63,591 nt of DNA, from positions 43,117 to 106,707 of the forward strand of contig NCHN01000025.1 of NCBI GenBank assembly GCA_002281875.1, written 5' to 3'. The translations under genes were made by a program, and so were the position numbers. The notes beneath the pieces are model-generated. The model searched no databases and was not told the DNA's origin. It saw only the letters and a list, made by a program, of their open reading frames with translations. This DNA comes from Sphingobacteriia bacterium 24-36-13 (GTDB lineage Bacteria > Bacteroidota > Bacteroidia > Chitinophagales > Chitinophagaceae). Below, piece after piece: positions 11,524 through 62,482 of the stretch; the first letter of the stretch is position 1; each line of letters starts with the position of its first letter.

Positions 11524-11586
11524 AATTTAACCAAATGGTATTCAGCTGAACCCATTTACCTATTTATATTAACGAAATTTACTTAA

Positions 11587-12537: not shown

Positions 12538-12549
12538 ACAATTTTATAC

Positions 12550-19250: not shown

Positions 19251-19284
19251 GAATGATTTCTGTTAGGAAATAAATAAATGATGA

Positions 19285-20613: not shown

Positions 20614-20659
20614 AATCAATAATTAATAAGTAAATAAAAAAATGCTTAATATGCCAGCA

Positions 20660-21220: not shown

Positions 21221-21254
21221 AAAAATACTTTAAATTTTTACATTTGAAATAATT

Positions 21255-21262
21255 TATTTTTG
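21255..21262 (+). promoter_or_regulatory. Bacteroidota-type -7 element upstream of the SRPBCC/GyrI-like gene
   Basis: The plus strand reads TATTTTTG (TAnnTTTG), 34 bp before the ATG at 21297, in the divergent spacer. No clear -33 element at the usual spacing. Confidence 0.35.
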
Positions 21263-21296
21263 TAGTATCATCTTTCATCATTACTCAATTAGCCTA

Positions 21297-22223: not shown

Positions 22224-22237
22224 TTTGGATTAGCGAA

Positions 22238-25200
22238 TCATTTGATTTTAAGCACTTGCAAGGCTCCATTATTTTTAGCTAGGATCCAACATGAGGCATT
22301 GCCTATTTTGATGGTTGCTGTTTTTCTTACTTCACCTGTTATTGGTATATTACTCAATGTAGCAGCTTTGAATACACTTTGTTTATTCCATTGTAAGATG
22401 GTACCATAGTCTGCGTCTTGTCTGCCAATCTCAATATTGTTGTACCCGAAATTTCCTAGGAGTAAGAAACTATGCGGTTGCTGTTGGCTATTTGCAGGAT
22501 ATTTAAATGGAATTACTGCCCTATAGTTACTTAACTGCGCATTGCTCGGCATTTCAACGGGCTCAAATTTTCCATTCCCATTATTCATCAAAATAATATT
22601 GGCAAATTGGGTCGCTTTTAACTGAAGTGATTGATTCAATTTTTCTTTGTTAAACAATTGATCTAAAGAGGCTTTGGCAAAATCTTCGGCATAAAGAAAT
22701 TTCTTCTTTAAAACAGGTAAAGATTTTTCTAATTGAATTTTACTGGCAAAGGGCATTTCTTTCCCTTGTAAATAGTAAGTAATTACTTGCTCTGCTCTGC
22801 CATTATTATCAAAATCGTTCACGTACATGGTTACTGGTTCCTGCTCACTTGCTTTTAATCGGCTATTCAAACCAAAATTACCTGCAATGATGTCTAGATG
22901 CCCGTCTTCATTCATATCGGTTACCGTAAGCGATTGCCACCAACCTTTTTGATTCAATAGGGTTTGTTTGGTATACTTATTTCCACTTTTAATAAAAGCA
23001 TCGATGGTTCCCCAAGCAGCACTCAATAACAAGTCTTTTGTTCCGTCTTTATTGATGTCTACAAATTGAGCATCGGTAATCATTCCTGGGTTCAGCAAGT
23101 CTGTTGAATAACTACTCGTTACATCTTTAAACTTTCCTGTTCCATCATTCTGTAATAAATAACTTCTAGGTGCTACACCATATTTCCATGGTTCTACTCT
23201 TCCTGCAATAAATAAATCAATATGCCCATCCCCATTGATATCATCTGCTATAATTTTACTTTGGGTGGAATAAATGGCAGTAAATGCATCCACTTTTCGA
23301 GTTAATTTTCCTTTGCCATCATTCAAATATAATAATGGCAATAAATGAACATCTTCTCCATAATATTCATTCCCACCACTAGCAATGACTAAGTCAGTTG
23401 CTCCATCTTTATTAACATCGGCCCAAATAGCATCCGTATTTTCCCACATAGAATCTTGCAACAATGCAGGCTGTGGCATGGGTTTAAACTTCCCATTGGT
23501 CTGTTGTATGTACACCGCATTGTGAAATGATTTTGAAGCCCCTACAAAAACATCTTCTAATCCATCCCCATTGATATCAGCAATTGCTAAAGCTGGGCCT
23601 TCTGCTGAAGTCATATAAGGGATCAAAGGTTCACGATCAAATTCATTAAAAGGATTCTCTATATGCTGGTAATTTAATCCTGTTGCTTCGGTAATATCTT
23701 CAAAATAAGAGGGGTTTAACTTTTCTTGACTTTTGATCTGTTGTGCAAAATCATATTTTGGTAAACCCGACTGAAAAACGATTTGCTGTGTTTTCCCTGC
23801 TTGTAATTGAATTTGTTGAAAACTTTGATCGGGCCAAATTAGTATAGCAGAATCGGGTTTAATTTGATTGAGCCCCACTATTATAGGAACTTGCATGCTA
23901 GACAAGAACCCGTGTACAGGAAACTGTTCATGGGTATACACTTGATCTTTTGCATATACCAACAGCTTTGCTCCTACCGCTAATCGATTCTGCTTGGAAC
24001 CTACTAATTCAATTTTGGCATAATTATTAGCAGTGGAATCTTTATTGGTATTGTTTTGATAAACCAACACTGGATCATTAATATTATTCACTACAATATC
24101 TAGGTCTCCATCATTATCTAAATCTGCATACACTGCTCCATTAGAAAAACTATTGGGATTGTTGTTGATATTACTACTGATATTATTAAAGTTGAGTGAA
24201 CCCTTATTCAAGAAAAATTGATTGGGAATTTTTATCTCGGGAAACTGATTAATTAAGGTTAGGTCTTTGCTTTCTAAACTATTGTTCTTTAATTTTTCTT
24301 GCAAGGCTTCACCAGAAACAAAATTGATGTAATCAATATCATTCATTCTCTTGGGTATACCATTTGATACAAATAAATCCTTGTTCCCATCATTATTAAA
24401 ATCCATCCACAATGACGCCCAGCTCCAATCGGTTGCATGTATACCTGCATACTGTCCTACTTCACTAAATTGTAAGTTACCTCGGTTATATTGTAAATTA
24501 TTTCTAGCATATTGATGGGTATACCCAAAAGCCAATTTATTTTGAAAAATATTGTAATCGTCTTCAGATAAGGACCTTCTGAGCATATATGATTCATAGG
24601 GTAACATATCCATGGAAACGATTTCTGGAAGCCCGTCATTATTGGCATCTGCAATGTCTACACCCATAGTGAATTGACTGGTATGCATCAATTGCTTTTT
24701 TCCTTTTTCTTCAAATTGTCCTTTTTGATTATTGATGTATAAATAATCGTTCTCATGAAAATCGTTCCCTACATATATATCTGGCCATCCATCTAAATTG
24801 ATATCTGCTACTGCAACACCTAATCCATAACCTATTTTAGATCCATTGATGCCTACTGTTCTTGTAATATCAGTAAACCTTCCATCAGTTACTCCACTTG
24901 CATTTAATTTGGTATCGTTGCGATAAAATTTTTGCCCTGCCAAAGAATCAAATGTGTTTTCGAAGTTTTTTCTTGGCGCATAATTGCCATCATGATTAAC
25001 AGAGTGATTCAGTAAAAATAAATCAAGGTCTCCGTCTGCATCGTAATCTAAAAATGCAGCCTGTGTACTAAATCCCGAAAAATCCAATCCATATTGTGCT
25101 GCTTGATCTTGATAATGGGGAATTCCCTTTTCATCAATTTTTGTGCAAACCAATAGTTGATTTTTGCCTTTTAGCACTTTGTAATTTCCTACCCGGCAAA

Positions 25201-25597
25201 TATAAATATCTAGTAACCCATCATTATTAATATCAACAACTGATACGCCTGTGCTCCATGCAATATCAGTTGGAATTTCAGCAGCTTTGGTAATATCTTC
25301 AAACTGTAGTTGTCCTTTATTTAAATAAAGTCGATTGGGTTGCTGATTCGCTGCAAAAAACAAATCAACTTTCCCATCATTATTAAAGTCTCCTGCACCC
25401 ACTCCCGCACCATTATAATAATACATATAAGAGAACAAATTGAATGCGGGTGTTGGGGTGAGTGTATTCGAAAAATCCAATCCTGTTTTAGCTGAAGTAA
25501 TTGGGGTAAAAACAGTTTCCCCCTCTTGATTTTTACATGCTATAAAACCGAAGCATATGCTCCCAACTATCCATGATATCAAAGCAAATTTCCTCAT
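22238..25597 (-). CDS. CRTAC1-like VCBS/FG-GAP and ASPIC/UnbV surface lipoprotein
   Basis: A 1119-aa lipoprotein (lipobox GFIAC). An N-terminal beta-propeller is built from FG-GAP/VCBS repeats with at least seven calcium-type DxNxDGxxD loops (for example DFNNDGKVD, DINNDGLLD, DYDADGDLD). An ASPIC/UnbV domain follows at about residues 535-602 (NRLAVGAKLLVYAK to the IWPDQ segment), then a second propeller with about six more loops. The frame reaches a GTG at 25603 overlapping the upstream stop, but the ATG at 25595-25597 gives a cleaner signal peptide. It directly follows a paralogue (25603-28920). Probably exposed on the cell surface; molecular role unknown. Confidence 0.85.
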   Translation of the reverse strand: MRKFALISWIVGSICFGFIACKNQEGETVFTPITSAKTGLDFSNTLTPTPAFNLFSYMYYYNGAGVGAGDFNNDGKVDLFFAANQQPNRLYLNKGQLQFEDITKAAEIPTDIAWSTGVSVVDINNDGLLDIYICRVGNYKVLKGKNQLLVCTKIDEKGIPHYQDQAAQYGLDFSGFSTQAAFLDYDADGDLDLFLLNHSVNHDGNYAPRKNFENTFDSLAGQKFYRNDTKLNASGVTDGRFTDITRTVGINGSKIGYGLGVAVADINLDGWPDIYVGNDFHENDYLYINNQKGQFEEKGKKQLMHTSQFTMGVDIADANNDGLPEIVSMDMLPYESYMLRRSLSEDDYNIFQNKLAFGYTHQYARNNLQYNRGNLQFSEVGQYAGIHATDWSWASLWMDFNNDGNKDLFVSNGIPKRMNDIDYINFVSGEALQEKLKNNSLESKDLTLINQFPEIKIPNQFFLNKGSLNFNNISSNINNNPNSFSNGAVYADLDNDGDLDIVVNNINDPVLVYQNNTNKDSTANNYAKIELVGSKQNRLAVGAKLLVYAKDQVYTHEQFPVHGFLSSMQVPIIVGLNQIKPDSAILIWPDQSFQQIQLQAGKTQQIVFQSGLPKYDFAQQIKSQEKLNPSYFEDITEATGLNYQHIENPFNEFDREPLIPYMTSAEGPALAIADINGDGLEDVFVGASKSFHNAVYIQQTNGKFKPMPQPALLQDSMWENTDAIWADVNKDGATDLVIASGGNEYYGEDVHLLPLLYLNDGKGKLTRKVDAFTAIYSTQSKIIADDINGDGHIDLFIAGRVEPWKYGVAPRSYLLQNDGTGKFKDVTSSYSTDLLNPGMITDAQFVDINKDGTKDLLLSAAWGTIDAFIKSGNKYTKQTLLNQKGWWQSLTVTDMNEDGHLDIIAGNFGLNSRLKASEQEPVTMYVNDFDNNGRAEQVITYYLQGKEMPFASKIQLEKSLPVLKKKFLYAEDFAKASLDQLFNKEKLNQSLQLKATQFANIILMNNGNGKFEPVEMPSNAQLSNYRAVIPFKYPANSQQQPHSFLLLGNFGYNNIEIGRQDADYGTILQWNKQSVFKAATLSNIPITGEVRKTATIKIGNASCWILAKNNGALQVLKIK

Positions 25598-25602
25598 GTT
25601 CA

Positions 25603-28600
25603 CTATTTTTTTCCTACACTTGTTTTGCGTAAATACACTGGATACTGGTTATTCTGTAATAGCAAAAAGCCCGGTTGATTTTGAACCTGCAAAGGCAAAA
25701 CCTGTTTTATTTGTCCGTTAATACTGATACCGGATTGTTGTGGCGATGCAACATTAAATCCTCCTTTACCGTTGCCTAGTAATAGATTTCCATAAGATGC
25801 ATCAATGCTACAGAACTGAGGCAATAAATCAAAAAAGTTACCTGCCGCTAGAATATCTTTATTTCCATCATTATTTATATCCTCTACTACCAATGCTTGA
25901 ATGCTAGACAACTGTAATTGATAAGGCAATGGTTGAATGGTAAATCCTTTATTACTATTATTGATGGCGATAATGGAAGCCGCTGTATTCACTGTTAATA
26001 CTTTTGCATCAGAAAGCGTATTCGGGAACAGCGCTTGAATAGTTTTGGATGCAAAGTCTTGGTGCTTTAAATTTTCTTTTTTCAATGCAGGAAGCTGTTC
26101 TGTTATGTCTTTCTTTAAGAAAACGGGCATGTCTGCTCCGTTAATGGTATGGCTGAATATTTTTTCAACAGTACCATTCTTATCAAAATCTTTTAAGAAT
26201 ACTTTTACTGGCGCATTGTTACTTGCACGCAAATAAAAATTCTCTCCCAAATTACCCAATACTAAATCGGTATCGCCATCATTGTCTATATCAGACGCTA
26301 CTACTGTTTGCCACCATCCCAATTGATTTTCCAAACCTGATTTTTGTTCAATGAATTGCTTGCCATTAAAAGTATAAATATGTGGATACATCCATTCACC
26401 AGTAATAACCAACTCAGGCTCGGCAGAACCCATCACATTGGCATACACTGCACCAGTGATCATTCCCAAATTCATTAAAAATGGAGCAGCAGTATTACTC
26501 ACTTCCTTAAAATTTCCATTCCCCTCATTGTGATACAAAAAACTTTTAGGTGCAATACCATATTGTTGTGGCTCACTTCTACTGCCAATAAAAATATCCA
26601 ACTTTCCATCTTTATCATAATCCAAAGGAATGGCTATTCCACAATTGGTATGACTGATTAAAAAAGCGCCCGACTTCAAAGAAAAAGCCCCCTTTCCATT
26701 ATTGATATACAGTTGATTTTGATATAAGTCGGAACTAGCTGGAGCAGTGTTTCCTCCCCCGCCTACAAATAAATCCTGGTCTCCATCTTGGTCTGCATCA
26801 AAGAAAAATGCAGCTGTTACATCGTTGAATTTATATTGATTGAAATCTGCTACTTCTTGTAGCTTAAACCCAGCATTTGTTTGTAAGTACAACTGACTTG
26901 CTTGTCCATTGGCGCCGCCAATAAATAAATCGGGTAAGCCATCTTCATTTAAATCTGTTGATGCCGCTTTGGGTCCCAACTTACTAAGCATAAAAGGAAT
27001 ATTCCTCTCTGTATAAAAGTCTACCTGGTCATCTTCGGTATGCTTTGTGAATTGCATTGGAAATTCCTGCAATAATGATGGCACCGTTTTATTTGTATTG
27101 GGCAAAAATGGCTTTGCAGAAGAAACATCGTATACAATTTTGTGCAACTGATTAATGGCGGGTTTTGGTATAGTAGTAATGGCTCTATTCGGCCATATCA
27201 CTTGCATAGAGTCGGGTAATGATTTACCTAAACCGATTGTTTGTTTATATTCCACAGAACTTTGAAAACCCTTGCTGGGTATTAATTCTCGGGTTATTAT
27301 TTGTTTGCCCTGATAAATTTTTATAGTACTGCCTATAGCAAATGGATTGGGATTGCTGTAGGTTAAAGCCACTCCAATAAAGTGGTCTTTATTTTGTTCG
27401 CGACTTTTATTTTTATAAATAGTAGCCGGTTGATTTACATTGTTGATGACCAAATCTAAATCGCCATCATTGTCCAAATCTGCATATGCTGCACCATTGG
27501 AAAAACTGGGCTTGTCTAATCCCCAGTTCACATTTTCATTGGTAAACTTAAGGTCACCTCTGTTCTTAAACATACTATTGGGAATGGGAACAGATGGCAT
27601 TTTATCAATTACATTATTTACCTCTTCTTTTTTACCATTTAATACCATTTGATTCACTACATCATTGGCAAAAAAGTCAATAAAATCTTGATCTGTTACA
27701 TCTCTATAAATACCATTGCATACTAGTATATCTGCTAACCCATCATTGTCTGCATCAAACATGAGTGCACCCCAACTCCAATCACTTGCTGCAACTCCGC
27801 TATAAAAAGCGGTTTCTAAAAATTTTCCTTCCCCGTTATTTACTTGAAGTGCATTTTGTGTAAACTGATTAAAAAAGTCCTGATTTTTTTTAAGCATGAA
27901 CACGTCATAACCTTCAAAAGAAGTATTGGTTTTTAATCTATAATCATCCCCTGGTAACATATCAGTAGTAAAAATATCTGGCTTGCCATCATTATTAATG
28001 TCTTGCAAATCGGCCCCCATAGAAGAGAAACTGATATGTTGTGTTCTTGTTGCTATTTCATCTTTAAATGTTCCATTGCGTTGATTGATGTACAAATAAT
28101 CTTTCTCAAAAAAATCATTGGAAACATACACATCAGGATATCCATCTAAATTAATATCACCTACTGTAACCCCTAAACCAAAACTGATGATACTTCCATA
28201 AATTCCGGCTTCCTTGGTTACTTCAATAAATTTCCCATTTTCATTTTTATATAAATGATCTCCACCCCCTTTTAAGAATTCGGCGAATGGGGCTTGTGCG
28301 TCTGGTATATTACGCATATTTGCGTAATTAAGGGTATTCACCGGAATAGGACTATTGTTTACTAAAAAGCAATCCAAGTCTCCATCTAAATCATAATCAA
28401 AAAAACTGGCTTGTGTAGAATAGCCATCATTGTCTAATCCGTATTGGGCAGCCGATTCAGTAAATGTGTTGTTTTTGTTGTTGAGGTATAGCTTGTTTTT
28501 TCGCTTTTCTTTTTGCAGCATATTACCTGCATTGCACACATAAATATCTAACCATCCATCTGCATTAATGTCTACGAATACAACCCCTGTACTCCATTCT

Positions 28601-28920
28601 CCATTATAGGTAATACCTGCTTTTTGCGTAATGTCTTCAAACTCAAAATTGCCTTTATTCAAGTATAATTTATTGCTGCCTTGATTGGCAGTAAAAAACA
28701 CTTCTGGTAATCCATCGTTGTTTAAATCTCCTGTTGCAACTCCACCACCATTGTAAAAATTGCGGTATTTGAATACATTAAATGCATCTGACTCTACCAA
28801 TGTATTGGTGAATTCAATATTGGTTTTAACTTCTTCAAATAGAGTCTCTTTCAACTGATTTTTACAAGACCCCAATAAACCCATGGCAATAAATAATGCC
28901 ACCATCTGTTTCATACGCAT
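25603..28920 (-). CDS. CRTAC1-like VCBS/FG-GAP and ASPIC/UnbV surface lipoprotein
   Basis: A 1105-aa paralogue of the adjacent downstream protein, with lipobox LLGSC. It has the same plan: a signature YNGGGVATGDLNNDG near residue 55-70, a first set of calcium-type loops, ASPIC/UnbV at about 525-583, a second propeller, and a conserved C-terminal block (SIDASYGNLLLGNGKGG). It ends where the next gene begins and starts about 65 bp after the susCD terminator, so it has its own promoter or depends on read-through. A second ATG two codons in is possible. Confidence 0.85.
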   Translation of the reverse strand: MRMKQMVALFIAMGLLGSCKNQLKETLFEEVKTNIEFTNTLVESDAFNVFKYRNFYNGGGVATGDLNNDGLPEVFFTANQGSNKLYLNKGNFEFEDITQKAGITYNGEWSTGVVFVDINADGWLDIYVCNAGNMLQKEKRKNKLYLNNKNNTFTESAAQYGLDNDGYSTQASFFDYDLDGDLDCFLVNNSPIPVNTLNYANMRNIPDAQAPFAEFLKGGGDHLYKNENGKFIEVTKEAGIYGSIISFGLGVTVGDINLDGYPDVYVSNDFFEKDYLYINQRNGTFKDEIATRTQHISFSSMGADLQDINNDGKPDIFTTDMLPGDDYRLKTNTSFEGYDVFMLKKNQDFFNQFTQNALQVNNGEGKFLETAFYSGVAASDWSWGALMFDADNDGLADILVCNGIYRDVTDQDFIDFFANDVVNQMVLNGKKEEVNNVIDKMPSVPIPNSMFKNRGDLKFTNENVNWGLDKPSFSNGAAYADLDNDGDLDLVINNVNQPATIYKNKSREQNKDHFIGVALTYSNPNPFAIGSTIKIYQGKQIITRELIPSKGFQSSVEYKQTIGLGKSLPDSMQVIWPNRAITTIPKPAINQLHKIVYDVSSAKPFLPNTNKTVPSLLQEFPMQFTKHTEDDQVDFYTERNIPFMLSKLGPKAASTDLNEDGLPDLFIGGANGQASQLYLQTNAGFKLQEVADFNQYKFNDVTAAFFFDADQDGDQDLFVGGGGNTAPASSDLYQNQLYINNGKGAFSLKSGAFLISHTNCGIAIPLDYDKDGKLDIFIGSRSEPQQYGIAPKSFLYHNEGNGNFKEVSNTAAPFLMNLGMITGAVYANVMGSAEPELVITGEWMYPHIYTFNGKQFIEQKSGLENQLGWWQTVVASDIDNDGDTDLVLGNLGENFYLRASNNAPVKVFLKDFDKNGTVEKIFSHTINGADMPVFLKKDITEQLPALKKENLKHQDFASKTIQALFPNTLSDAKVLTVNTAASIIAINNSNKGFTIQPLPYQLQLSSIQALVVEDINNDGNKDILAAGNFFDLLPQFCSIDASYGNLLLGNGKGGFNVASPQQSGISINGQIKQVLPLQVQNQPGFLLLQNNQYPVYLRKTSVGKK

Positions 28921-29039: not shown

Positions 29040-30632
29040 TTAATATCCGAAGTTTTGCTTCAAGTTAGGGTTAGAAGACAATGATACAGTTGGGATTGGG
29101 TATACCACTTTGTATCCGTCTGATGCACTTGGTCTTTCTTCAACAGGAGCGTTGAATACACCAAAGCGAATCATGTCTGTTCTTCTGTGACCTTCTAGGT
29201 AAAGTTCACGACCTCTTTCAGCTAACAATGAAGTTAGTGTTACAGAAGCAATAGCAGTAGCTCTACGCTTAGAACGTAAATCGTTAACAATTGACAAAGG
29301 AGTTTCACCATTCGCACCTGTTGAACCACCTCTTAGTAAAGCTTCCGCTTTCATTAAGCGAACATCAGAGAAACGGAAGAAAGGAAACTCATTTGAACTT
29401 CCCCAAGCACCATCATTAATAGTAGTAGGATCTAGAGGGAACTTATTTACACGGATACCGCTTGCTTCTCCATTGAAGAAGATAGATGCATTACGAGTAA
29501 ACACCAATGGGTTACCTGAACGATCTTTTAAGTCTACAATTTCTCCACCAATCAATCCATTTTTTGGACCACGTGCCTGGCCTACTAAAAGTCCTGCAGT
29601 AGCACCAACAACGTTAGTAAAGCCGGCCAAGGTATCGCTCTTACGAACGTCGTTACCTTCAAAGCTATCGTAGAATTGAGAAAGCGTTACGAAACCATTC
29701 CAAGAGGATGGAGTTTGGTTGTAATGCCAGCTTTGAGAAGTCTGCCATCTTAAACCAGCACCATTTCCTGCTCTAGCATCGCCACCAGCCTTACGAACAA
29801 AAATATTCTCAGAAGATGCGGTACCATTGTCCCACTTAAAGTTATCCCAGTAGTAAGAGTCAATAGCCAAGTTAGTGTTTGCAGCAACTAAGTTACAATA
29901 CTCAATTACTTTGTTCATATCTGCAGCAGCAAATGTATAAGGACCAGCTGGCTTAGTTGGATCTTGCTTATAAACAGCTTTGTTTAAATAAGCTTTAGCC
30001 AATAGAGTCCAAGCAGCTTCTTTAGTTGCTTGTGCACGGTTTGCACCATTGTATGCAGGTAATGCTGGAACTGCAGCTTCTAATTCAGCAATGATTGCGT
30101 CAATAGCAGCAGATCTAGTTAATACATCAGGAATTGCACTTGCAGCAGCAGTTGCAGGTCTTGATTGTACTTGACCATAGATATCACAAGTTAAGAAACG
30201 GAAGTAAGCACGTAAGAACTGTCCTTCTGCTTTTTCTAAACCAGTTTTGGTTTCAGCAATTAAAGTTGTTTGGAACAATGCACCATTTAAACCATTCCAA
30301 GTATCGTTGATTTGGTTGTGGTCTGCAGCCCAAGTATGTAGGTGCAAACGACGCCATGTACCAAAGTCATCCCAGTCGGTACCACGTGTTGGTCCCATGA
30401 TTTCATCGGTAGAATGCTCTTGCAATCCAAACCAGTTACCCTGGCCACCGGTTAATTGGTTTAATTGCTCATAAACGGCAGCAATTGAAGGAGCCGTAGG
30501 AGCACCACCAGCTTGGTTTGGAGCGATGGAGTTTGGTGCCTCCAACTTTGGATCAAGCTTGGAACAAGACGAGATCGCAAGTACACTTACTGCCGCGGCA
30601 GGTAGAATGTAGCTTTTTATTAAATTTTTCAT
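29040..30632 (-). CDS. SusD/RagB-family nutrient-binding lipoprotein
   Basis: A 530-aa surface lipoprotein (signal peptide with lipobox AISSC). It shows the SusD hallmarks: a helical TPR-like core (for example AEGQFLRAYFRFLTCDIYG and TKEAAWTLLAKAYLNKA) and a C-terminal RagB/SusD segment (RGRELYLEGHRRTDMIRFG) ending in NPNLKQNFGY. SusD caps the SusC channel and captures a nutrient. The frame starts at TTG 30641; ATGs at 30638 and 30632 are preferred, the latter giving a typical MKNL signal peptide. It follows susC by about 28 bp. The substrate is not predictable; no glycoside hydrolase sits next to it. Confidence 0.92.
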   Translation of the reverse strand: MKNLIKSYILPAAAVSVLAISSCSKLDPKLEAPNSIAPNQAGGAPTAPSIAAVYEQLNQLTGGQGNWFGLQEHSTDEIMGPTRGTDWDDFGTWRRLHLHTWAADHNQINDTWNGLNGALFQTTLIAETKTGLEKAEGQFLRAYFRFLTCDIYGQVQSRPATAAASAIPDVLTRSAAIDAIIAELEAAVPALPAYNGANRAQATKEAAWTLLAKAYLNKAVYKQDPTKPAGPYTFAAADMNKVIEYCNLVAANTNLAIDSYYWDNFKWDNGTASSENIFVRKAGGDARAGNGAGLRWQTSQSWHYNQTPSSWNGFVTLSQFYDSFEGNDVRKSDTLAGFTNVVGATAGLLVGQARGPKNGLIGGEIVDLKDRSGNPLVFTRNASIFFNGEASGIRVNKFPLDPTTINDGAWGSSNEFPFFRFSDVRLMKAEALLRGGSTGANGETPLSIVNDLRSKRRATAIASVTLTSLLAERGRELYLEGHRRTDMIRFGVFNAPVEERPSASDGYKVVYPIPTVSLSSNPNLKQNFGY

Positions 30633-30659
30633 ATTCATCAATGTTTTTGTTGTTCTTTA

Positions 30660-33600
30660 TTAAAACCCAACGTTGATACCTAAAGTAATCACAGTTGGTC
30701 TTGGGTACTGTGTATAATCAAATCCACGAGAAGGGATACCGTTGATACTCTTGTCTACGTTAACCTCAGGATCAATACCAGAGTATTTACTAAACAATGC
30801 CAAGTTTTGGCCAGAAGCAAAAGCAGTTAAAGTCTTTATTGCTTTACCCTTGATGTCGAAAGCATAGCTTAAGTTCATGTTGGCTAAGCGAATAAAGTCT
30901 CCTTTCTCTAAGAACCTTGTTGATACTGAACCTGGGTTAAATGGATTCTCAGGACCGTTACCAATTGCATAAGTTACGTTACGTGCGTTACGCAAGCTAC
31001 CTTTCAATAACAACGCATTCGCAGTATTGTTGTAAATATAATGTCCGGTTACCGCATTTAAGAATACACTCAAATTCCATCTTCCATAAGAGAATGTGTT
31101 GGTTAAACCAGCAAACATTTTAGGCAATGCAGTACCAACCAATTGGTTAGCAGCACCTGCAGCATAACGTGCGTTACCGTTACCATCAAATCCTTGGAAA
31201 ACAGGCATTGACCAAGTAAAGATTGGGTTTCCGTTGGTTAAGGTTTGAGCAAATGCTCCAGTTAAACCTTGTCCACTTACCGCACCAGTATTAATTGGAG
31301 TTGGTAAACCAGTCACGTTATTGCTTACAGTTGTTACGTTCGCATTAACATCCCAGTTGAATTTATTTCCTTTAATTAGTTTGTAGTTTACACTAAACTC
31401 CCAGCCTTTGTTTACCACATTACCTGGTAAGTTGATCCACCAGCTGCTGGTTGGAGCGAATCCACCTGGAGTTGGAGCAAAGAACAACATATTGGTACGC
31501 TCATTCTTGTAGTAATCTACAGTTGCAGATAAACGACCATTCTTGGTAGTGAAATCTACTCCAACACCTGTTGTAGCAACTTCTTCCCACTTCAAGTTAG
31601 GGTTACCTTGCTGAATAAAACGAGTAACAGGACCGCTACCTACATCAAATGTTTGTTGAAGGTTTAATGCCGCATAAGAACCTAGGTTATCTTGGCTACC
31701 CAATTTACCGTAGTTTACTCTTACGTTGAAGTCACTGAACAATTTACCCAATGTTTTTTGAGCCCAAGCTTCTTCTAACACTCTCCATTTAAATGCAAAC
31801 GCAGGGAAAGTACCATAACGGTTGTTAGAACCAAACTTAGAAGATCCATCAGATCTTACTGTAGCAGTTAAGAAATATTTGTCTTTGTAAGTGTAGTTAA
31901 CACGAGCAAAAACAGATTGCAATTCGTTTCTGTCGAAGCCAGGAACAAAGTTTGCGTAGTTTTTAAACTTAGAAAAATCTTTTACAAATACATCAGTTGG
32001 TGTAACCACTGGTGTGTTTAAGCCCCAGCCAAATCTACCAGTGTAGCTGGTTTGGAAACTTTGATATGAATAACCTGCAACAGCGTTGATTGCATGAACG
32101 TTATTGAAAGTTTTGTCATAAGTAAAGTAGTGCTCAATCAAAGTAGACTTGGTTTCCAAATTTTGTCTGGTAACACGACCATTACCTTGGATACCATTTT
32201 GATAATCTCTTCCGAATACGTTGATAGTACCACCGTATGCGTTAGAACCCAAGCGAGGATCTGCAAATGCAGTACGCTCAGACTTTGAGTTATCTAAACC
32301 AAGCACAGCTCTGTAAGATAAGCTTGGAGTAATTTGATAAGTAGCAGATAAGTTAGTTAAGAATCTGTTTACAAAGTCGCGGTCATCAAAGTAAGCCAAC
32401 ATTTGAACTGGGTTACGCTGATCTCCTGGTTGAAAGAATGAACCGTCTTTGTTATAAACAGGATTGGTTGGGTTTAACTGTAAAGCAGCACCCAATAAAG
32501 AACCTTGGTATCCAGCATTGTTAGACAATGGTGCGTACTGGTTCTTAGTATTAGAATAAGTGATGTTCGCTTCTAATTTCAATTTGTCGTTAAACAACTT
32601 TTGACCCAAATTAGCGCGTGTAGTAATACGCTTTAATCCGCTGTTTCTTACAATACCTTGTTGATCATCGTAAGATGCACTTAAGCGAGCAGTTGTTCCT
32701 TTATGGCTGTAAGCCCAGCTAAGGTTGTAGTTCTGAGAAATAGCCTGACGGAAAATTTGGTCTTGCCAATCGGTGCTTGCACCGTTGTCAATTCCCCTAA
32801 CTGCAACACCTGCCGCAACTGGATCAGCACCACCATCAATGTTCGCTTTTTTAGCAGCCAACAAGAAGTCTTGTGCATTCATCAAGTCATAACGACGAGC
32901 AGTGTTCGCCATACTGGTAGTAGCACCAAAATTAAAAATGCCGGCTTTTCCACCTCTACCTTGTTTGGTAGTGATTAAGATTACACCGTTTGCACCTCTA
33001 GAACCATAAATGGCAGCAGCAGATGCATCTTTTAATACAGTAATGCTTTCAATATCATTTGGGTTTAAGAAAATCAATGGGTTTTTAGGAGTAGTACTTC
33101 CTTCAACACCACTAGCAGAACCCAAAGTACCACCTTGAATCAACGGAACTCCGTCAATTACATACAATGGTTCTTGTGCACCACTAATTGATCCGGTACC
33201 TCTAATATTGATTGTTGCAGCAGCACCTGGTTCACCAGTGGATGGAGTTACCAACACACCTGGAGTACGGCCTTGCAACAACTGATCTGGAGAAGCAATT
33301 TGACCTTTGTTAAAGTCTTTCTCCGTTACACGCGCAACAGAACCTGTTACGTCTTTTGTTTTTCTAGAACCATAACCAATTACCACAACATCAGTTAACG
33401 CATCAGCGGTAGATGTTAATTTGGCATCAGCAGTGTTTGATCCAGAAATATTCACTTCAGCATTACCAAAACCGGCGAATGAAATCACCAATGTTTTAGT
33501 GGTTGAAGGAACAGTTAACTTGAAGGAACCGTCTGCACCCGTTTGGGTACCTGTTGAAGTTCCTTTAGCTACTACAGATGCACCAGATAGCGGTGATCCG

Positions 33601-33716
33601 TCTTTTGAGTCAGTTACCTTACCGGTAACCGTTTTAGTTTGCGCATGCGAGAAGATGGCAAACAGACAAGCGAAGGCACCCAATAATATGGGCCTAGCAA
33701 GCAGTCTTAGATTCAT
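30660..33716 (-). CDS. SusC/RagA-family TonB-linked outer-membrane transporter
   Basis: A 1018-aa transporter. After a signal peptide comes a CarboxypepD-regulatory-like domain (TVTGKVTDSKDGSPLSGASV, about residues 28-105). The SusC TonB box/plug entry VVVIGYGSRKTKDVTGSV follows, then the plug with an AAIYGSRGANGVILITTK motif near 235-250, and a C-terminal barrel. It imports oligomeric nutrients with its SusD partner. No anti-sigma/ECF pair is adjacent, so regulation is unclear. About 350 bp of non-coding DNA lies upstream. Confidence 0.94.
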   Translation of the reverse strand: MNLRLLARPILLGAFACLFAIFSHAQTKTVTGKVTDSKDGSPLSGASVVAKGTSTGTQTGADGSFKLTVPSTTKTLVISFAGFGNAEVNISGSNTADAKLTSTADALTDVVVIGYGSRKTKDVTGSVARVTEKDFNKGQIASPDQLLQGRTPGVLVTPSTGEPGAAATINIRGTGSISGAQEPLYVIDGVPLIQGGTLGSASGVEGSTTPKNPLIFLNPNDIESITVLKDASAAAIYGSRGANGVILITTKQGRGGKAGIFNFGATTSMANTARRYDLMNAQDFLLAAKKANIDGGADPVAAGVAVRGIDNGASTDWQDQIFRQAISQNYNLSWAYSHKGTTARLSASYDDQQGIVRNSGLKRITTRANLGQKLFNDKLKLEANITYSNTKNQYAPLSNNAGYQGSLLGAALQLNPTNPVYNKDGSFFQPGDQRNPVQMLAYFDDRDFVNRFLTNLSATYQITPSLSYRAVLGLDNSKSERTAFADPRLGSNAYGGTINVFGRDYQNGIQGNGRVTRQNLETKSTLIEHYFTYDKTFNNVHAINAVAGYSYQSFQTSYTGRFGWGLNTPVVTPTDVFVKDFSKFKNYANFVPGFDRNELQSVFARVNYTYKDKYFLTATVRSDGSSKFGSNNRYGTFPAFAFKWRVLEEAWAQKTLGKLFSDFNVRVNYGKLGSQDNLGSYAALNLQQTFDVGSGPVTRFIQQGNPNLKWEEVATTGVGVDFTTKNGRLSATVDYYKNERTNMLFFAPTPGGFAPTSSWWINLPGNVVNKGWEFSVNYKLIKGNKFNWDVNANVTTVSNNVTGLPTPINTGAVSGQGLTGAFAQTLTNGNPIFTWSMPVFQGFDGNGNARYAAGAANQLVGTALPKMFAGLTNTFSYGRWNLSVFLNAVTGHYIYNNTANALLLKGSLRNARNVTYAIGNGPENPFNPGSVSTRFLEKGDFIRLANMNLSYAFDIKGKAIKTLTAFASGQNLALFSKYSGIDPEVNVDKSINGIPSRGFDYTQYPRPTVITLGINVGF

Positions 33717-57186: not shown

Positions 57187-57191
57187 ATCAT

Positions 57192-57617
57192 TTAATTAAG
57201 CCACTCAGCATAGGAGTCACTGGTTTCGTAAATTTTCAATTTTCTTAATCTGATTTCTGTTGGCAGTTCAGCTAATAAAACATTGCGTATATAAAGTAAG
57301 ATGTTTTCGGCTGTTGGTTCCATCTCCCAGATAATTAAATTTTCGGATGCAGCTGCATGGGGATGTTCTGCTAAAAAATCTTGTGATAAAATCAGTCGAT
57401 GATCTAACTGCTCTACAATAATCCTATTTACAATTTTTTTAAGGTCTTTAAAGTCTATTACAAAACCTGGTTTGGGTAAATAAGCCATACCATCTGCGTC
57501 TGAACCCACAGTCACATGCAATACATAAGAATGCCCATGAATATTTCTGCAATGTCCATTATAGCCGTGTATGGCATGCGCTGTTTCGAATCTAAATATT
57601 TTAGTTACCTGAATCAT
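57192..57617 (-). CDS. 6-pyruvoyl-tetrahydropterin synthase / QueD family enzyme
   Basis: A 141-aa protein with zinc-ligand histidines (ETAHAIHGY and the pair in NIHGHSY), the catalytic Cys of CRNIHGH, and a C-terminal IYETSDSYAEW. It fits 6-carboxytetrahydropterin synthase (QueD) or PTPS-like proteins, making a pterin or queuosine/7-deazaguanine precursor. The frame extends 30 codons upstream to 57707 into the haloperoxidase gene, but family homology begins MIQVTKIFRFETAHA at 57617. It overlaps the upstream gene by 17 bp and precedes GH109 by 5 bp, an unexpected position for this enzyme. Confidence 0.88.
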   Translation of the reverse strand: MIQVTKIFRFETAHAIHGYNGHCRNIHGHSYVLHVTVGSDADGMAYLPKPGFVIDFKDLKKIVNRIIVEQLDHRLILSQDFLAEHPHAAASENLIIWEMEPTAENILLYIRNVLLAELPTEIRLRKLKIYETSDSYAEWLN

Positions 57618-58932
57618 GAGGCAAAAATACAGTATTATAATAACTCCCAATTTGCTCCCCCTGTTTTTGCCCATTTTCGATTGCTGCGCGATAATGAATT
57701 CCTCCATACATTCTACTCATACTTACTTCATTGGCTGCAGCTTTAATAGAAGAAAATGACCTTTTCATTCCAAGGTATTTTAACTCCGTGGTATCAGTAA
57801 ATGGAGTATTCGATCCAAAAACATTGGACAGCACAGTTGCTGCAGCAGCTGAAATAACACTGTGTCCGCTGGTATACTCTGGAAAAGGAGGAGTTTGTAA
57901 ATAAGGGTTCCATTCCGACTCTATATTTTCCCGAATCACCGTAATTGGTCTTACGGTTTTACTAGTGAACTTTTCTTCCCAAGTTGAAATGAATCCATCA
58001 AATATGGCAAGAGAAGTTAACGCAAACGCTTTAGCAATATCTAACTCAGTCTTTTTTGATTGATTGGCTAGAATAATCGTGATTCCCATCCAATGACCTA
58101 CTGGTGTTGTTTTTTTATTCGCATAAGTTAAATGTCCTTTGTGCTCTGAAACAAAAGGATTGTCATCCCAATAACGGGCGATTGTTTTTTGCTCTTCGGT
58201 TAAAGTTTTACTCATTGCAAATAGCTCTTTAACTTCCTTATAATAAGGGCTATTGGGCTGCATGGAGAAAGCAGGTGGCCTTACTGGTTTAAACTGTGAG
58301 GCTGAATCTAGTAACATTGGTTTTATATACCTCCAATTGGGCTCAATTGCTTCTTCATAATCAGGTGGTGTTTGTTGCCAAATTCCTGTTTCTTTTAAAA
58401 CACTAAATTTAGGCATGCCTCTTGTAATTTTATACCCATCTTTTGATGCACGTTCCAAAATAGTAGCAGCAACCTTTTCTCCCCAATCAATAGATGCTGT
58501 TTGAATTGCGGTTTCTAGATGTGCAAAGTTTTTGACCAATAGCGCCCTAGTTTTCTGGATACTGTCTTTAGAAAAAACCAATGCCTCTGCCACTTTCATA
58601 AAAGCAATACCTGCAGAAAATGGATAATCAATCTTCAATGATGTATCTGCTTGATTGATACTCGAAAATCCTTTTAATTTAGGAAGCAGACTTTCATAAC
58701 CTGAATTCATTGGTCGAAGGGCTTCATAAAAAGCTAAATTGCTGTACGCGTACATTCTTCCAGCAACAGGTGGATTATTGATATCGTAAACAATCACATC
58801 AGTTAGTTGCTGAACACAAAAGTTTTGCAGTTCAGCCCCTGAATAGGTTTTCACTTTTTCCGTTTTACAACCGAAAGAAATTGCAATAAGTAACACCAAA
58901 AACAATTGTATATTTTTTAGGAATGCATTCAT
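57601..58932 (-). CDS. Vanadium-dependent haloperoxidase / PAP2-like lipoprotein
   Basis: A 443-aa lipoprotein (lipobox AISFGC). It has KFTSKTVRP (first motif, near 320-328), YTSGHS (second, near 350-355) and SRMYGGIHYRAA (third, near 405-416); the His is kept but the terminal Asp of HX3D is Ala. It is the closest in plan to the 19285-20613 protein (shared segments such as KTGIWQQTPPDYE versus the paralogue's GRWVPTPP, and WDDNPF). Its start codon lies 4 bp after the CRTAC-like gene, so the two are translated from one transcript. Catalytic activity uncertain. Confidence 0.8.
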   Translation of the reverse strand: MNAFLKNIQLFLVLLIAISFGCKTEKVKTYSGAELQNFCVQQLTDVIVYDINNPPVAGRMYAYSNLAFYEALRPMNSGYESLLPKLKGFSSINQADTSLKIDYPFSAGIAFMKVAEALVFSKDSIQKTRALLVKNFAHLETAIQTASIDWGEKVAATILERASKDGYKITRGMPKFSVLKETGIWQQTPPDYEEAIEPNWRYIKPMLLDSASQFKPVRPPAFSMQPNSPYYKEVKELFAMSKTLTEEQKTIARYWDDNPFVSEHKGHLTYANKKTTPVGHWMGITIILANQSKKTELDIAKAFALTSLAIFDGFISTWEEKFTSKTVRPITVIRENIESEWNPYLQTPPFPEYTSGHSVISAAAATVLSNVFGSNTPFTDTTELKYLGMKRSFSSIKAAANEVSMSRMYGGIHYRAAIENGQKQGEQIGSYYNTVFLPHDSGN

Positions 58933-58936
58933 TTTA

Positions 58937-61900
58937 TTAAGGTTGTATGGTTCTTGTTTTTTTAGTACCAGAAAAAATATCTACATATTTCATTTCTGGA
59001 GAAAGCAGCATATATCTGGATGATTGCGATAAAAAGCCCTGACCAAAATGATATTCCTCCTTTCGTTTTAACCCATTTTTAAAATGAATCATTGCATGTG
59101 TTTCTTGATCCTGTATTTTTAATGGCAGTTCCTTATTTACTGTCTGCTGAAATAATTTTATGAAATCTCTGTTTTGACCTGCCACTAAACCAGCTTGTCC
59201 ATTCACTACAAGCCCCGCTAATGCTCTTCCATTTGCTGGTGTATAAAATCCACTTTCTGCTATGGATAAGGTTCTAAACTTTCCTTTACCAAGATTCAAT
59301 AATACTATCCCATTTAAAGCATCTTGTCTTCCTAAATAAGGTGACATTGCATATTCATTACCCGTTGAAATTAAATCAACCCAGCCATCGTTGTTGACAT
59401 CCTTGGGCAGGATTCCAAATATAGGCGCCAGCTGAATTGATGCTGGTAGTTCATGCATTTCAAAATTAAAATTCCCTTTATTTTCTATCCAGCTTGTTGG
59501 TAAATAATTTACACTAGCCCTATATGCATCTTTCAATTGATCTGCAGTTAATAATTGATTCATATCGGTTTTAGCATAACCAGTATAATTAGGAAATCGT
59601 TCCTTCATTATACTCATTTCTCTTAACAATAGATCTCTACCCGCTAAAGGAAATTCTTTTTTTATACCACCTACTTGATCAACTATCCAATGACTAAAAA
59701 TTACATCTAAACTAAAATTATTATCAAAGTCTTTTGCATATACATTTAATGGTTCCTCATTGGAAGCATGCAAAAATGAATTGGTTCCAAAATTGCCGGC
59801 TATATAGTCTAAGTCGCCATCGTTATCCATATCAGCCGATACAATACTGTTCCACCATCCTTTATATGTATCTAATGGTGTTTTTATTTTGGTTAATTTG
59901 ATTCCATCGTTTTTGAATACATCAATACTTCCCCATTCTTTGGTTATCATCAAATCCATTTTCCCATCCGAATCTGCATCAGACCATATTGCTGCTGTTA
60001 CCATTCCAATTTTTACCAATTCAGGTGCTACTTTATTCGTTACATCTGTAAATTGAACTTGACCTTTTTGTGAATTATTTTGATAAATAAAACTACTTGT
60101 TGGCATTGGATATCGGCCTGGTATTACTCTTCCTCCAATAAATAAATCGAGGTCTCCATCTAAATCATAATCTGCAGCAACAACAGTACTTTTTGTCGCT
60201 CGATTATTGGTAAAATCAGTTTCCAATTCAGAAAAATTTCCTTTCCCATCATTCAAATAGAAATGGTCGGCATATGCTTTTGTTTGGGGTTGATTTTCTG
60301 CACCACCAGATACGATGAACAAATCTAAGTCGCCGTCTTTATCCGCATCTATTAATAATATTCCTGCATCATCTTGCAACTGTGGATTATTATTTCCTGG
60401 TAAAAATTTTCGAACAAATTTCCCTTTGGCTGTTTGAAAAAAAATGGATGCGTGAAAAGGGGAACCTCCTCCTGATACAATATCATCTAGCCCATCTCCA
60501 TTTAAATCTCCTGTTGCTAAGGAGGGGCCATACTGAGTAAGTTTATGCAGCAAGAGTCTTTGAATATCAAAATCAATAAAATCTACTTCTGAAAAACCGT
60601 AGGTGATTCCTGCCTTTTGGGTAATATCTGTCAGGAACGATTCAATGTGAGTCGGCGGTTGTAATCCCCCCGAATCTAAAGCAGAAGTATACCCAATATT
60701 CATTTGTAGATTGGCTTGAATATTGGTTTTAAGGGTAGTCTTACCATCGGGCCATATTACTCTTATTGAATCAATTACACTTTGTTTTCCAATACCAAAA
60801 TGTATCGCTTGTTCAACACTGGAAAGATAACCACGGTAGGGAGAATATTCCATTACTTGATGCTGACCTTTTGCATATAGATGTACCCATGCACCAAGGG
60901 CCATTTTATTTTGTGGTGTACCACTTAACAATATTCTTAAATAATTGTCGTGCTCTTTTTGTTGTTGTTGGGTATTTTCTAACAATGTAGCTGGCATATT
61001 GGTATTATTAATCACCAAATCCAAATCTCCATCTTTATCTAAATCGGCATAAGCCATTCCTGCTGAAAAACTAGGGCTATTAATTCCCCATTCTTTTGAT
61101 TGATCAGTAAAATGCAAATCGCCATTATTCTTAAATGCATAATTACTGATTTTGACTTCTGGTAACTGTCTAAGCACTTCTTCTAATGGAGCATTGGCTA
61201 CTGCATTCTGTCTATAAGCCATAAAGTCTTTATCAGACATGTCTTTGGGCAAACCATTGGTTACAAACAAGTCTTTAAACCCATCGTTATCCATATCCAT
61301 TAAAAGAGGCGCCCAACTCCAATCGGTATGTGCTACCCCACTGAAATAAGCAATTTCACTAAATGCTGGTCTTGAAATGGAATCATATCCCTTTGGAAGA
61401 AAACCTTGATTGAGTTGTAGCGTATTTCTTGGATACTGGTAAATATATCCATATCGATCACTATTTTGAAATGTTTGATAACTAATATCGGAGTGCATCA
61501 TTTTTTGACGATAATGATCGGCAGGCATCATATCTGTTTCAATAATATCTGCTAACCCGTCATTATTGATATCAGCAATATCATTACCCATTGCGTTTTT
61601 GCTGGTATGTTTTAAATAACGATCACATTGATCGGTAAATGTGCCATTTTGATTATTGATATAAAGCACATTATTTGATAAATAATCATTGCTCACATAA
61701 ATATCTTTAAATCCATCTTGGTTAATATCTGCAATACTGATACCCAATCCATGACCTTCTATCAAAATACCTGCCTGTTTAGAAACATCTTTATATACTG
61801 GATGACCTAGTATTGAATCAAAATTATTTTGTAATAATTTATCGGTATTTGGCCAAGATCCATCTTTTCTAATCGGCCTAAACTCATTGGGATAGGTTCC

Positions 61901-62482
61901 ATCTAAATCATTAATCAATAAATAAACGTCTACATCTTGGTCGTTATCGTAATCAAAAAATGCAGCCATATGGGTATTAGAAGCATCTGCTAATCCATAT
62001 TCCGCTGCTTGATCTTTAAACTCAGGAACACCTGTTTCTTTGTTTAATCCCTGATTAATATAGAGTATATTTTTTCTTTTATTGCTGTCGGGCAACACTG
62101 CCGCACAAACATAAATATCCATTAACCCATCGTTATTGATATCAATAATACTGGCTCCTTTACTCCATTTCCCATTTCCATCAACGCCTGCTTTTTGGGT
62201 AATATCTTCAAAAGTTAAATCGCCTTTGTTTAAAAATAATTTATTGGGCACTCGATTACCAGTAAAGTAAATATCAGGTAAACTGTCGTTATTGAAATCT
62301 CCTATACCCACACCGCCCCCGTTATAGATATATTCATAATTGAGCACGTTTAGCTCTTGGGTTTCGATTATGGTATTTGAAAAAATCAATCCTGATTTTT
62401 CAGGCTTGATTTCCTTAAAGAGTGGACGTTTTTGATTGCAAGACAACAGGAAGAAAAAAGCAAGGAATATATAAGACTTCAT
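58937..62482 (-). CDS. CRTAC1-like VCBS/FG-GAP and ASPIC/UnbV surface lipoprotein
   Basis: An 1181-aa lipoprotein (lipobox FFLLSC), the third paralogue in the window. It shares YNGGGVGIGDFNND near residue 55, calcium-type loops (DINNDGLMD, DYDNDQDVD, DINQDGFKD, DLDKDGDLD), ASPIC/UnbV at about 520-582, a second propeller (DLNGDGLDD, DADKDGDLD, DYDLDGDLD, DMDNDGDLD) and a C-terminal block like those of the others (GRQDALNGIVLLNLGKG). It is the first gene of an operon with a haloperoxidase-like protein, a PTPS enzyme and three glycan enzymes. Role unknown. Confidence 0.86.
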   Translation of the reverse strand: MKSYIFLAFFFLLSCNQKRPLFKEIKPEKSGLIFSNTIIETQELNVLNYEYIYNGGGVGIGDFNNDSLPDIYFTGNRVPNKLFLNKGDLTFEDITQKAGVDGNGKWSKGASIIDINNDGLMDIYVCAAVLPDSNKRKNILYINQGLNKETGVPEFKDQAAEYGLADASNTHMAAFFDYDNDQDVDVYLLINDLDGTYPNEFRPIRKDGSWPNTDKLLQNNFDSILGHPVYKDVSKQAGILIEGHGLGISIADINQDGFKDIYVSNDYLSNNVLYINNQNGTFTDQCDRYLKHTSKNAMGNDIADINNDGLADIIETDMMPADHYRQKMMHSDISYQTFQNSDRYGYIYQYPRNTLQLNQGFLPKGYDSISRPAFSEIAYFSGVAHTDWSWAPLLMDMDNDGFKDLFVTNGLPKDMSDKDFMAYRQNAVANAPLEEVLRQLPEVKISNYAFKNNGDLHFTDQSKEWGINSPSFSAGMAYADLDKDGDLDLVINNTNMPATLLENTQQQQKEHDNYLRILLSGTPQNKMALGAWVHLYAKGQHQVMEYSPYRGYLSSVEQAIHFGIGKQSVIDSIRVIWPDGKTTLKTNIQANLQMNIGYTSALDSGGLQPPTHIESFLTDITQKAGITYGFSEVDFIDFDIQRLLLHKLTQYGPSLATGDLNGDGLDDIVSGGGSPFHASIFFQTAKGKFVRKFLPGNNNPQLQDDAGILLIDADKDGDLDLFIVSGGAENQPQTKAYADHFYLNDGKGNFSELETDFTNNRATKSTVVAADYDLDGDLDLFIGGRVIPGRYPMPTSSFIYQNNSQKGQVQFTDVTNKVAPELVKIGMVTAAIWSDADSDGKMDLMITKEWGSIDVFKNDGIKLTKIKTPLDTYKGWWNSIVSADMDNDGDLDYIAGNFGTNSFLHASNEEPLNVYAKDFDNNFSLDVIFSHWIVDQVGGIKKEFPLAGRDLLLREMSIMKERFPNYTGYAKTDMNQLLTADQLKDAYRASVNYLPTSWIENKGNFNFEMHELPASIQLAPIFGILPKDVNNDGWVDLISTGNEYAMSPYLGRQDALNGIVLLNLGKGKFRTLSIAESGFYTPANGRALAGLVVNGQAGLVAGQNRDFIKLFQQTVNKELPLKIQDQETHAMIHFKNGLKRKEEYHFGQGFLSQSSRYMLLSPEMKYVDIFSGTKKTRTIQP

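Follow-up and report, generated by a model that had tools for sequence, protein, structure and literature searches.

A CRTAC–haloperoxidase gene pairing in Bacteroidota and a proposed outer-surface uptake module

Among the described systems closest to the genes considered here are the crystallized vanadium iodoperoxidase of Zobellia galactanivorans (PDB 4cit/4usz), cartilage acidic protein 1 (CRTAC1), which we take to be built from an FG-GAP propeller and an ASPIC/UnbV domain, and the SusCD-type loci for utilization of poly- and oligosaccharides. Genes resembling these three occur together in a 63,591-nt stretch of the genome of Sphingobacteriia bacterium 24-36-13 (contig NCHN01000025.1, positions 43,117 to 106,707; hereafter the window). 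A gene for a CRTAC-like lipoprotein (P0001) immediately precedes one for a vanadium haloperoxidase (VHPO) lipoprotein (P0002), and a second block holds two more CRTAC-like genes, two VHPO-like genes and a SusC/SusD pair. In the explanation that we favor, a conserved outer-surface uptake module of Bacteroidota is present here in two versions. Each component is already known. In the open-licence literature searched, we found no description of a linkage between CRTAC/ASPIC and VHPO genes, or of VHPO within SusCD operons, and to our knowledge no function has been assigned to the ASPIC/UnbV proteins of bacteria.

Linkage of CRTAC-like and haloperoxidase genes

A preliminary description of the window reported a CRTAC-like gene followed after 4 bp by a haloperoxidase/PAP2-like gene. 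Both open reading frames are present, of 1181 and 443 residues with a 4-nt spacer at 58933-58936, and their Pfam domains agree with that account: FG-GAP_3 (4.3e-62) and UnbV_ASPIC (5.8e-20) in P0001, and PAP2 (8.8e-10) in P0002, where VCPO_2nd reaches 26.9 bits, just under its 27-bit cut-off. Lipid anchors had been proposed for all six CRTAC- and VHPO-like proteins of the window, and each translation, judged by eye, does start with a hydrophobic stretch ending in cysteine. The count of three genes of each family holds for the CRTACs (UnbV_ASPIC at 71.4, 50.9 and 32.6 bits against a cut-off of 23.4, with FG-GAP repeats also present) but not for the haloperoxidases. Because P0003 is only a distant relative of P0002 (32% identity, E 8.3e-18), the close pairing family has two members in the window, not three. 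The genome as a whole contains four ASPIC domains, three of them inside the window, and three P0002 relatives at E ≤ 0.01, all inside it.

The predicted model of P0001 (pLDDT 88.9, pTM 0.89) has murine CRTAC1 (9etn) as its best fold match (E 5.8e-26, TMt 0.72, TMq 0.35). The remaining matches among the 50 rows shown, mostly DDB1, have TM-scores ≤0.30, which leaves CRTAC1 as the only meaningful one. A profile of 30 CRTACs matched integrin-alpha propeller stretches in both halves and CRTAC1 at 5.1e-31. In our reading of the model, the first half of P0001 resembles CRTAC1 and a second propeller comes after it.

Proximity of the two families, which the preliminary description had judged to exceed chance, is strongly enriched. 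Among 148 genomes drawn across the phylum Bacteroidota, 35 carry a VHPO relative (E ≤ 1e-20), and ASPIC is present in all 35. With the window's own genome excluded, 32 of 53 VHPO genes have an ASPIC domain no more than 5 kb away, compared with 0.61 expected (P ~3e-49) under uniform placement, a null that ignores the clustering of surface genes and to that extent weakens the case. The count of adjacency against a null that had been proposed thus gives a strong excess under uniform placement. Nor is the linkage confined to a few close relatives: close pairs span 25 genomes and 7 family codes. When the own genome is included, there are 34 close pairs: the two genes share a strand in 33, with ASPIC upstream in 32 and downstream in one, and lie on opposite strands in the remaining one. 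Forty genomes were also drawn separately from within the order. Of their 31 VHPO loci, 18 have a P0001-like reading frame in the flanking 1.5 kb, the own genome contributing 1 of the 18 and 3 of the 31. Distant VHPO relatives (≤215 bits) are not linked in this way, with ASPIC nearby in 1 of 10 compared with 31 of 43 closer ones. The pairing extends far beyond this one stretch of DNA.

We then refer to 80 named loci, the best 80 of 583 relatives listed. Here CRTAC stands beside VHPO in Flavobacteriaceae, Cytophagales genera, Chitinophagaceae, Mucilaginibacter and Haliscomenobacteraceae. Six loci have <1.5 kb of upstream sequence; of the other 74, 45 have a CRTAC-type gene immediately upstream in the same orientation. 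CRTAC-type genes occur within the 10-kb flanks of 54 of the 80. In these counts, two short haem-bearing forms beside VHPO (L044, L046) are taken as CRTAC type. The gap from CRTAC to VHPO has a median of 8 nt over 45 pairs and is ≤30 nt in 33, lengths that rest on start codons chosen by our own rule. A recurrent order is SusC-SusD-CRTAC(1-3)-VHPO; in Arenibacter palladensis (L097), for example, it reads SusD, CRTAC, CRTAC, VHPO. A GyrI-like protein is encoded nearby in 16 + 3 of the 80. The family scan of operon-run neighbours covered 100 of 145. By a crude pattern, a lipoprotein signal is present in 87 of 123 CRTAC, 56 of 87 VHPO and 17 of 34 SusD reading frames.

Quick FastTree trees add a second line of evidence. 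The CRTAC tree, built from 121 full-length proteins, groups them by their position relative to VHPO, with 15 changes required versus 57.5 after shuffling. P0007 falls in the m2 clade, P0008 in a large clade holding most m1 and m3 rows, and P0001 in a separate clade, many members of which are the single CRTAC before a VHPO (type II, as distinct from the type I operon). On the VHPO tree, the type of the CRTAC partner changes only twice among 54 labelled rows; these labels were read by us from the CRTAC tree, and 4cit, P0003 and P0004 were labelled type I by assumption or distance. Counting unlinked rows, that tree needs 8 changes for type I and 4 for type II. P0004 groups with the copies of L033 and L041, outside the main type I clade. 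At the level of gene order and phylogeny, these comparisons show the recurrent order and its enrichment, CRTAC clades that are position-specific, and CRTAC and VHPO clades that are matched.

Could the adjacency merely reflect a single ancient operon passed down vertically within a few lineages? Distances between VHPOs and between their adjacent CRTACs are indeed closely correlated (r=0.83, n=51; the largest of 2000 shuffles reached 0.155), and this figure carries no species-tree correction. We nevertheless regard this explanation as very improbable. It sits poorly with the spread over 7 family codes and 25 genomes, with the divergent, convergent and same-strand neighbours seen by eye in the order sample, and with the existence of two types having different CRTAC clades; moreover, an operon conserved for so long would itself imply selection.

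A somewhat less improbable, still doubtful, alternative is that SusCD-type loci carry CRTAC and VHPO as independent cargo, brought together because genes for surface lipoproteins cluster, with no shared task. Linkage of CRTAC to SusCD without VHPO, and VHPO without CRTAC, are both found. Since only 57 of 144 ASPIC domains in the 35 VHPO-positive genomes lie within 10 kb of a VHPO gene, CRTAC is the wider family. A control with SusD argues against mere clustering: SusD lies near ASPIC in 15 of 97 cases, versus 32 of 53 for VHPO (Fisher 3e-8). The VHPO figure comes from all genomes and the SusD figure from ten that we picked by hand from the 35 VHPO-positive ones (hence 12 of 13 for VHPO there), with 97 of 101 SusD rows used and four second pieces of a gene dropped. 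The tight CRTAC–VHPO spacing and the fidelity of partner types also speak against independence. In the same ten genomes, SusD lies just upstream of 15 of 32 ASPIC clusters, compared with 0.14 expected.

A fusion of the two families was not seen: no VHPO open frame exceeds 531 residues in the order and phylum VHPO scans. One ASPIC domain (G017:C47:109962, in L118) lies in an open frame of 2163 residues, far longer than other members, and no VHPO match was found within the 1636 residues examined.

Active site, sugar genes and chemistry of the haloperoxidase family

P0002 is 47% identical to 4cit and carries K321, R328, S355, G356, H357, R407 and H413 in what we take, with the roles of these residues, to be the vanadate-binding set K, R, S, G, H, R, H. 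The K, R, G, H, R and H are invariant in all 80 named loci; the serine is retained in 75 and replaced by alanine in 5. P0004 has a cysteine in its place (TCGH). Because of these replacements in P0004 and in 5 of 80 relatives, part of the family may differ in chemistry. A Trp/Phe pair next to the site is likewise invariant in the 80, and is missing in four acid phosphatase chains aligned to P0003.

A single family for all three window VHPOs was considered and ruled out for P0003 by distant homology, tree and alignment. Its best match is still 4cit, and it is the only window VHPO that we saw reach acid phosphatases (E 6.6e-10 for 7f17 to 0.009 for 2ipb); a check of acid-phosphatase membership gave 27.4 bits for NF045654 against a cut-off of 430 bits.

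The characterized enzyme itself falls within the pattern. Among the 80 named loci, the proteins that 4cit matches best are encoded at the end of CRTAC runs in Flavobacteriaceae. One genome (G183), by inference Zobellia or near kin, encodes a VHPO 98% identical to 4cit in the order CRTAC-CRTAC-CRTAC-VHPO-GyrI-like. SusD was not recognized in the 20 kb examined there; in a genus mate (G411), SusD lies further upstream, beyond an opposite-strand transporter.

Sugar genes offer a clue to the ligand. Of 9 short GH65 genes, 5 have a VHPO gene within 7.5 kb (0.06 expected), as do 5 of 16 GH37 trehalase genes (0.10 expected) and none of 14 long GH65 genes. This test used 37 of 55 VHPO rows (the own genome's two and lower-scoring ones omitted), 16 of 34 trehalase rows (full-length only), and the 9 short and 14 long GH65 genes obtained after 9 second pieces had been merged. 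All four short GH65 proteins scanned exceed the NCBIfam cut-off for kojibiose hydrolase, and the enrichment of this enzyme and of trehalase suggests sugar uptake. Further sugar genes are scattered among the loci: GH32 in L146, GH15 in L141, and a sucrose-type MFS transporter in 3 of the 80 plus L144 and L146. The window's own sucrose-symporter-like MFS is 66% identical to the one beside the operon in L146. Together, the GH65 and GH37 genes near VHPO, the kojibiose hydrolase matches and the scattered sugar genes point to use of alpha-glucosides in part of the type I loci.

A GH100 gene in L142 belongs to a GH65-trehalase-SusCD locus without VHPO. In a few loci, a MIP channel and a glycerol-kinase-type gene stand behind VHPO (L105:11503-15377; L144:17983-19899), and L105 also holds a glycerol-3-phosphate dehydrogenase/oxidase-like protein there. 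We rejected alpha-glucosyl-glycerol as a general substrate, and with it a general glycerol link, because GlpK lies near VHPO in only 1 of 27 cases (by eye) versus ~0.19 expected, a figure that assumes one GlpK per genome. We count this result among the points against the uptake module proposed below.

As for the reaction that the enzyme would catalyze, our tentative first choice is hydrolysis of a phosphate ester, that of a phosphorylated alpha-glucoside, at the vanadate/phosphate site, a choice in keeping with the sugar context and with hosts that live inland. Just behind it we rank the oxidation of iodide or another halide with peroxide, and we would give some other chemistry a smaller, though real, share. 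Two points tell against a phosphatase: iodoperoxidase is the name given to the relative that has been studied, and the Trp/Phe pair is missing from the acid phosphatases that were aligned.

The same observations sustain a broader competing explanation, which we consider credible if short of an even chance. VHPO would be a true surface iodo- or haloperoxidase that turns H2O2 and iodide (or bromide) into hypohalous acid, and CRTAC and SusCD would bind or import the product; its purposes could be iodine uptake, peroxide removal, or an attack on glycans and on competing organisms. The name given to 4cit is vanadium-dependent haloperoxidase, the title of its paper speaks of an iodoperoxidase, and its 98% homologue stands behind three CRTAC genes. 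The near-invariant vanadate site and the Trp/Phe pair described above are as expected of such an enzyme, and the haem-bearing FG-GAP proteins (8 of 80 named loci) and GMC oxidoreductases (6 of 80) of some type II loci suggest surface redox chemistry. Many carriers, however, belong to the soil and freshwater genera Mucilaginibacter, Spirosoma, Dyadobacter, Segetibacter and Sediminibacterium, and iodide is scarce in such habitats. Among the identified recurrent neighbour families of type I, moreover, no H2O2-forming enzyme was recognized, and sugar hydrolases recur instead. Published work supplies further points in favor of a haloperoxidase. The iodine-accumulating Arenibacter C-21 has at least five such genes (PMC5064120), its congener A. 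palladensis having the CRTAC-CRTAC-VHPO order given above (L097), and a Zobellia vIPO3 gene was up-regulated on the brown alga A. nodosum (PMC9296495). The residues that govern halide choice are described as largely unknown (PMC13198595).

The haem-bearing proteins merit description in their own right. FG-GAP proteins of ~500-525 residues with one CxxCH haem motif are encoded beside VHPO in L044, L046, L050, L055, L056, L070, L073 and L087, the motif having been found by pattern in seven loci and by eye in L056. They are possibly surface cytochrome-propeller proteins.

A candidate uptake module and its two versions in the window

In the module that we propose, a SusC/SusD porter is joined by CRTAC-like propeller lipoproteins, one to three in number, and the last gene encodes a lipoprotein of haloperoxidase fold. 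The CRTACs would sit with SusD on the outer face of the cell and bind a ligand in solution. The VHPO would be anchored to that face as well and act on the ligand or its surroundings, and SusC would import the product. Some type I loci would then use it by means of their kojibiose hydrolase, trehalase and sugar transporters; because of these genes, the ligand there is probably an alpha-glucoside. We consider the module and its uptake role, with surface capture, a tethered enzyme and import, somewhat more probable than not. VHPO is probably part of a nutrient-uptake machine, since in many Bacteroidota it is encoded directly behind CRTACs and often with an outer-membrane importer, and since the window bacterium carries two such sets.

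A stronger form of this proposal makes the VHPO-fold enzyme a functional subunit of a SusCD-type machine and the CRTACs its dedicated partners, presenting substrate for chemical activation at the surface before import. We think this form unlikely on present evidence; we know of no SusCD system with chemical activation of the substrate before import. Were it true, the known bacterial iodoperoxidase activity might be a side reaction of a surface-activation role. The two proteins may form the surface complex suggested in the preliminary description, in which the propeller would position a substrate or act as an adhesin.

Several observations weigh against the proposed uptake module. No ASPIC domain occurs within 5 kb of 21 of the 53 VHPO genes, and in 29 of 74 named loci the next gene upstream is not of CRTAC type. 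Within 10-kb flanks, SusC is found in only 32 and SusD in only 24 of the 80 loci, GH65 in only 11 and trehalase in only 8; the own genome has no GH65, and its trehalase is one weak partial match. Only 2 of the 13 VHPO genes in the ten picked genomes have SusD within 5 kb, a scarcity that we attribute to the CRTAC genes standing between them. Type II neighbours are different, with GMC, GH30, GH3 and haem-bearing FG-GAP proteins. In the window itself, the pair at 57601-62482 has no adjacent SusCD and lies ~24 kb from the SusC gene, and the opposite-strand gene at 21297-22223 stands between P0004 and the CRTAC run.

The second block of the window (Table 1) bears on two earlier claims. The CRTAC genes at 22238-28920 had been placed near a haloperoxidase operon; VHPO-like genes are present at 16757-18310 and 19285-20619, but that opposite-strand gene intervenes. 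CRTAC and VHPO had also been treated as a two-family unit; the pairing stands, but the unit frequently extends to a larger operon that includes SusC and SusD, and in the window the SusD and SusC genes directly ahead of the CRTAC pair had been overlooked. With susC (30660-33716) and susD (29040-30641) in tandem, the block has the arrangement by which SusCD loci are defined; as for a carbohydrate-active enzyme, the GH13 gene (12550-14544) lies beyond the cluster on the other strand. The order P0003-like, OMP, VHPO, MEM, GyrI-like, CRTAC, CRTAC of the 16757-28920 block recurs in L141, which adds GH65 inside the block and trehalase at its end. L033 and L041 each combine, in one ~21-kb cluster, an OMP-VHPO-MEM group with GH65, a CRTAC–VHPO pair and CRTAC-CRTAC-SusD-SusC. 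Homologues of the GyrI-like protein lie in or beside the cluster in L033, L034, L041, L140 and L141.

Table 1. Coordinates of the paired genes and of the second block in the window
Feature	Coordinates	Strand	Basis and remarks
P0001, CRTAC-like lipoprotein: FG-GAP repeats, ASPIC/UnbV, second propeller half	58937..62482	-	Pfam, model, fold match, tree; type II CRTAC, partner of the VHPO behind it
P0002, vanadium haloperoxidase (iodoperoxidase-type) lipoprotein	57601..58932	-	4cit E 3.7e-116; vanadate-site residues conserved
SusC/RagA TonB-linked outer-membrane porter	30660..33716	-	TIGR04056 3e-208
SusD-family lipoprotein ahead of CRTAC pair	29040..30641	-	Family match
P0007, CRTAC-like lipoprotein, m2 clade of type I operon	25603..28920	-	Pfam, tree
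P0008, CRTAC-like lipoprotein, last CRTAC of run	22238..25603	-	Pfam, tree
Weakly GyrI-like protein between CRTAC run and VHPO group	21297..22223	+	E 0.0012, below cut-off
P0006 (labelled MEM), small protein with N-terminal membrane segment	20660..21220	-	No Pfam family; recurs beside VHPO in L033, L041, L140, L141
P0004, second iodoperoxidase-type VHPO, Cys replacing vanadate-site Ser	19285..20619	-	Homology, alignment, tree
P0005 (labelled OMP by us)	18288..19250	-	No Pfam family; also near VHPO in L033 and L041, and flanked by two VHPO genes in L141
P0003, distant VHPO/PAP2 relative	16757..18310	-	Homology; 57% identical protein at same position in L141
TonB-dependent receptor adjoining P0003	14550..16733	-	Family match
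Sucrose-symporter-like MFS, fructokinase-like PfkB, GH13 (treS-like), beside cluster	10189..14544	+	NCBIfam matches, all below cut-offs

Other genes of the window were noted in passing. Behind the P0001–P0002 pair, 53469-57707 (-) encodes a PTPS-like protein, a GH109-type oxidoreductase, an APH-like kinase and an alpha-L-fucosidase. The nearest relative, L032, has the same CRTAC-VHPO-PTPS-GH109-fucosidase neighbourhood. A Sortilin/Vps10-like BNR-repeat protein of 1007 residues (34071-37094, -) adjoins the SusC gene and has homologues in the flanks of L080 and L111. Further along, a 1457-residue frame (40622-44995, -) joins a complete RND transporter (ACR_tran, residues 5-1034) to an outer-membrane efflux protein (OEP, to residue 1455); it is an apparent fusion of an inner-membrane pump with an outer-membrane channel, and an HlyD-type gene adjoins it.

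Comparison with known systems

The linkage matters for both families. ASPIC/UnbV proteins gain a testable setting as SusCD partners. The crystallized iodoperoxidase family, studied as a stand-alone halide enzyme, is now placed in gene sets linked to nutrient uptake, also in soil and freshwater genera.

Set beside the Zobellia enzyme, P0002 aligns over residues 12-432 of its 443 and has the same vanadate-site residues. It differs in that Glu replaces the Asp after the conserved Trp, and the NPY stretch has Phe where the Zobellia enzyme has Tyr; P0004 departs further with its Cys for the site Ser. PAP2-superfamily acid phosphatases (7f17, 1d2t and the class A PhoN 2ipb) share the common catalytic motif and are matched by P0003; unlike VHPO, those aligned lack the Trp/Phe positions and are much shorter (217-261 residues).

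P0001 resembles CRTAC1 in its combination of an FG-GAP propeller with ASPIC/UnbV. The bacterial protein, in contrast, is a lipoprotein of ~1100-1180 residues with a second propeller and a C-terminal part, and TMq is only 0.35. Finally, the loci are like SusCD-type utilization loci in that SusC and SusD stand ahead of the CRTACs, with glycoside hydrolases and sugar transporters near some of them. They are unlike them in their accessory surface proteins, which are CRTAC propellers and a haloperoxidase in place of SusE/F-type binders and surface glycanases.

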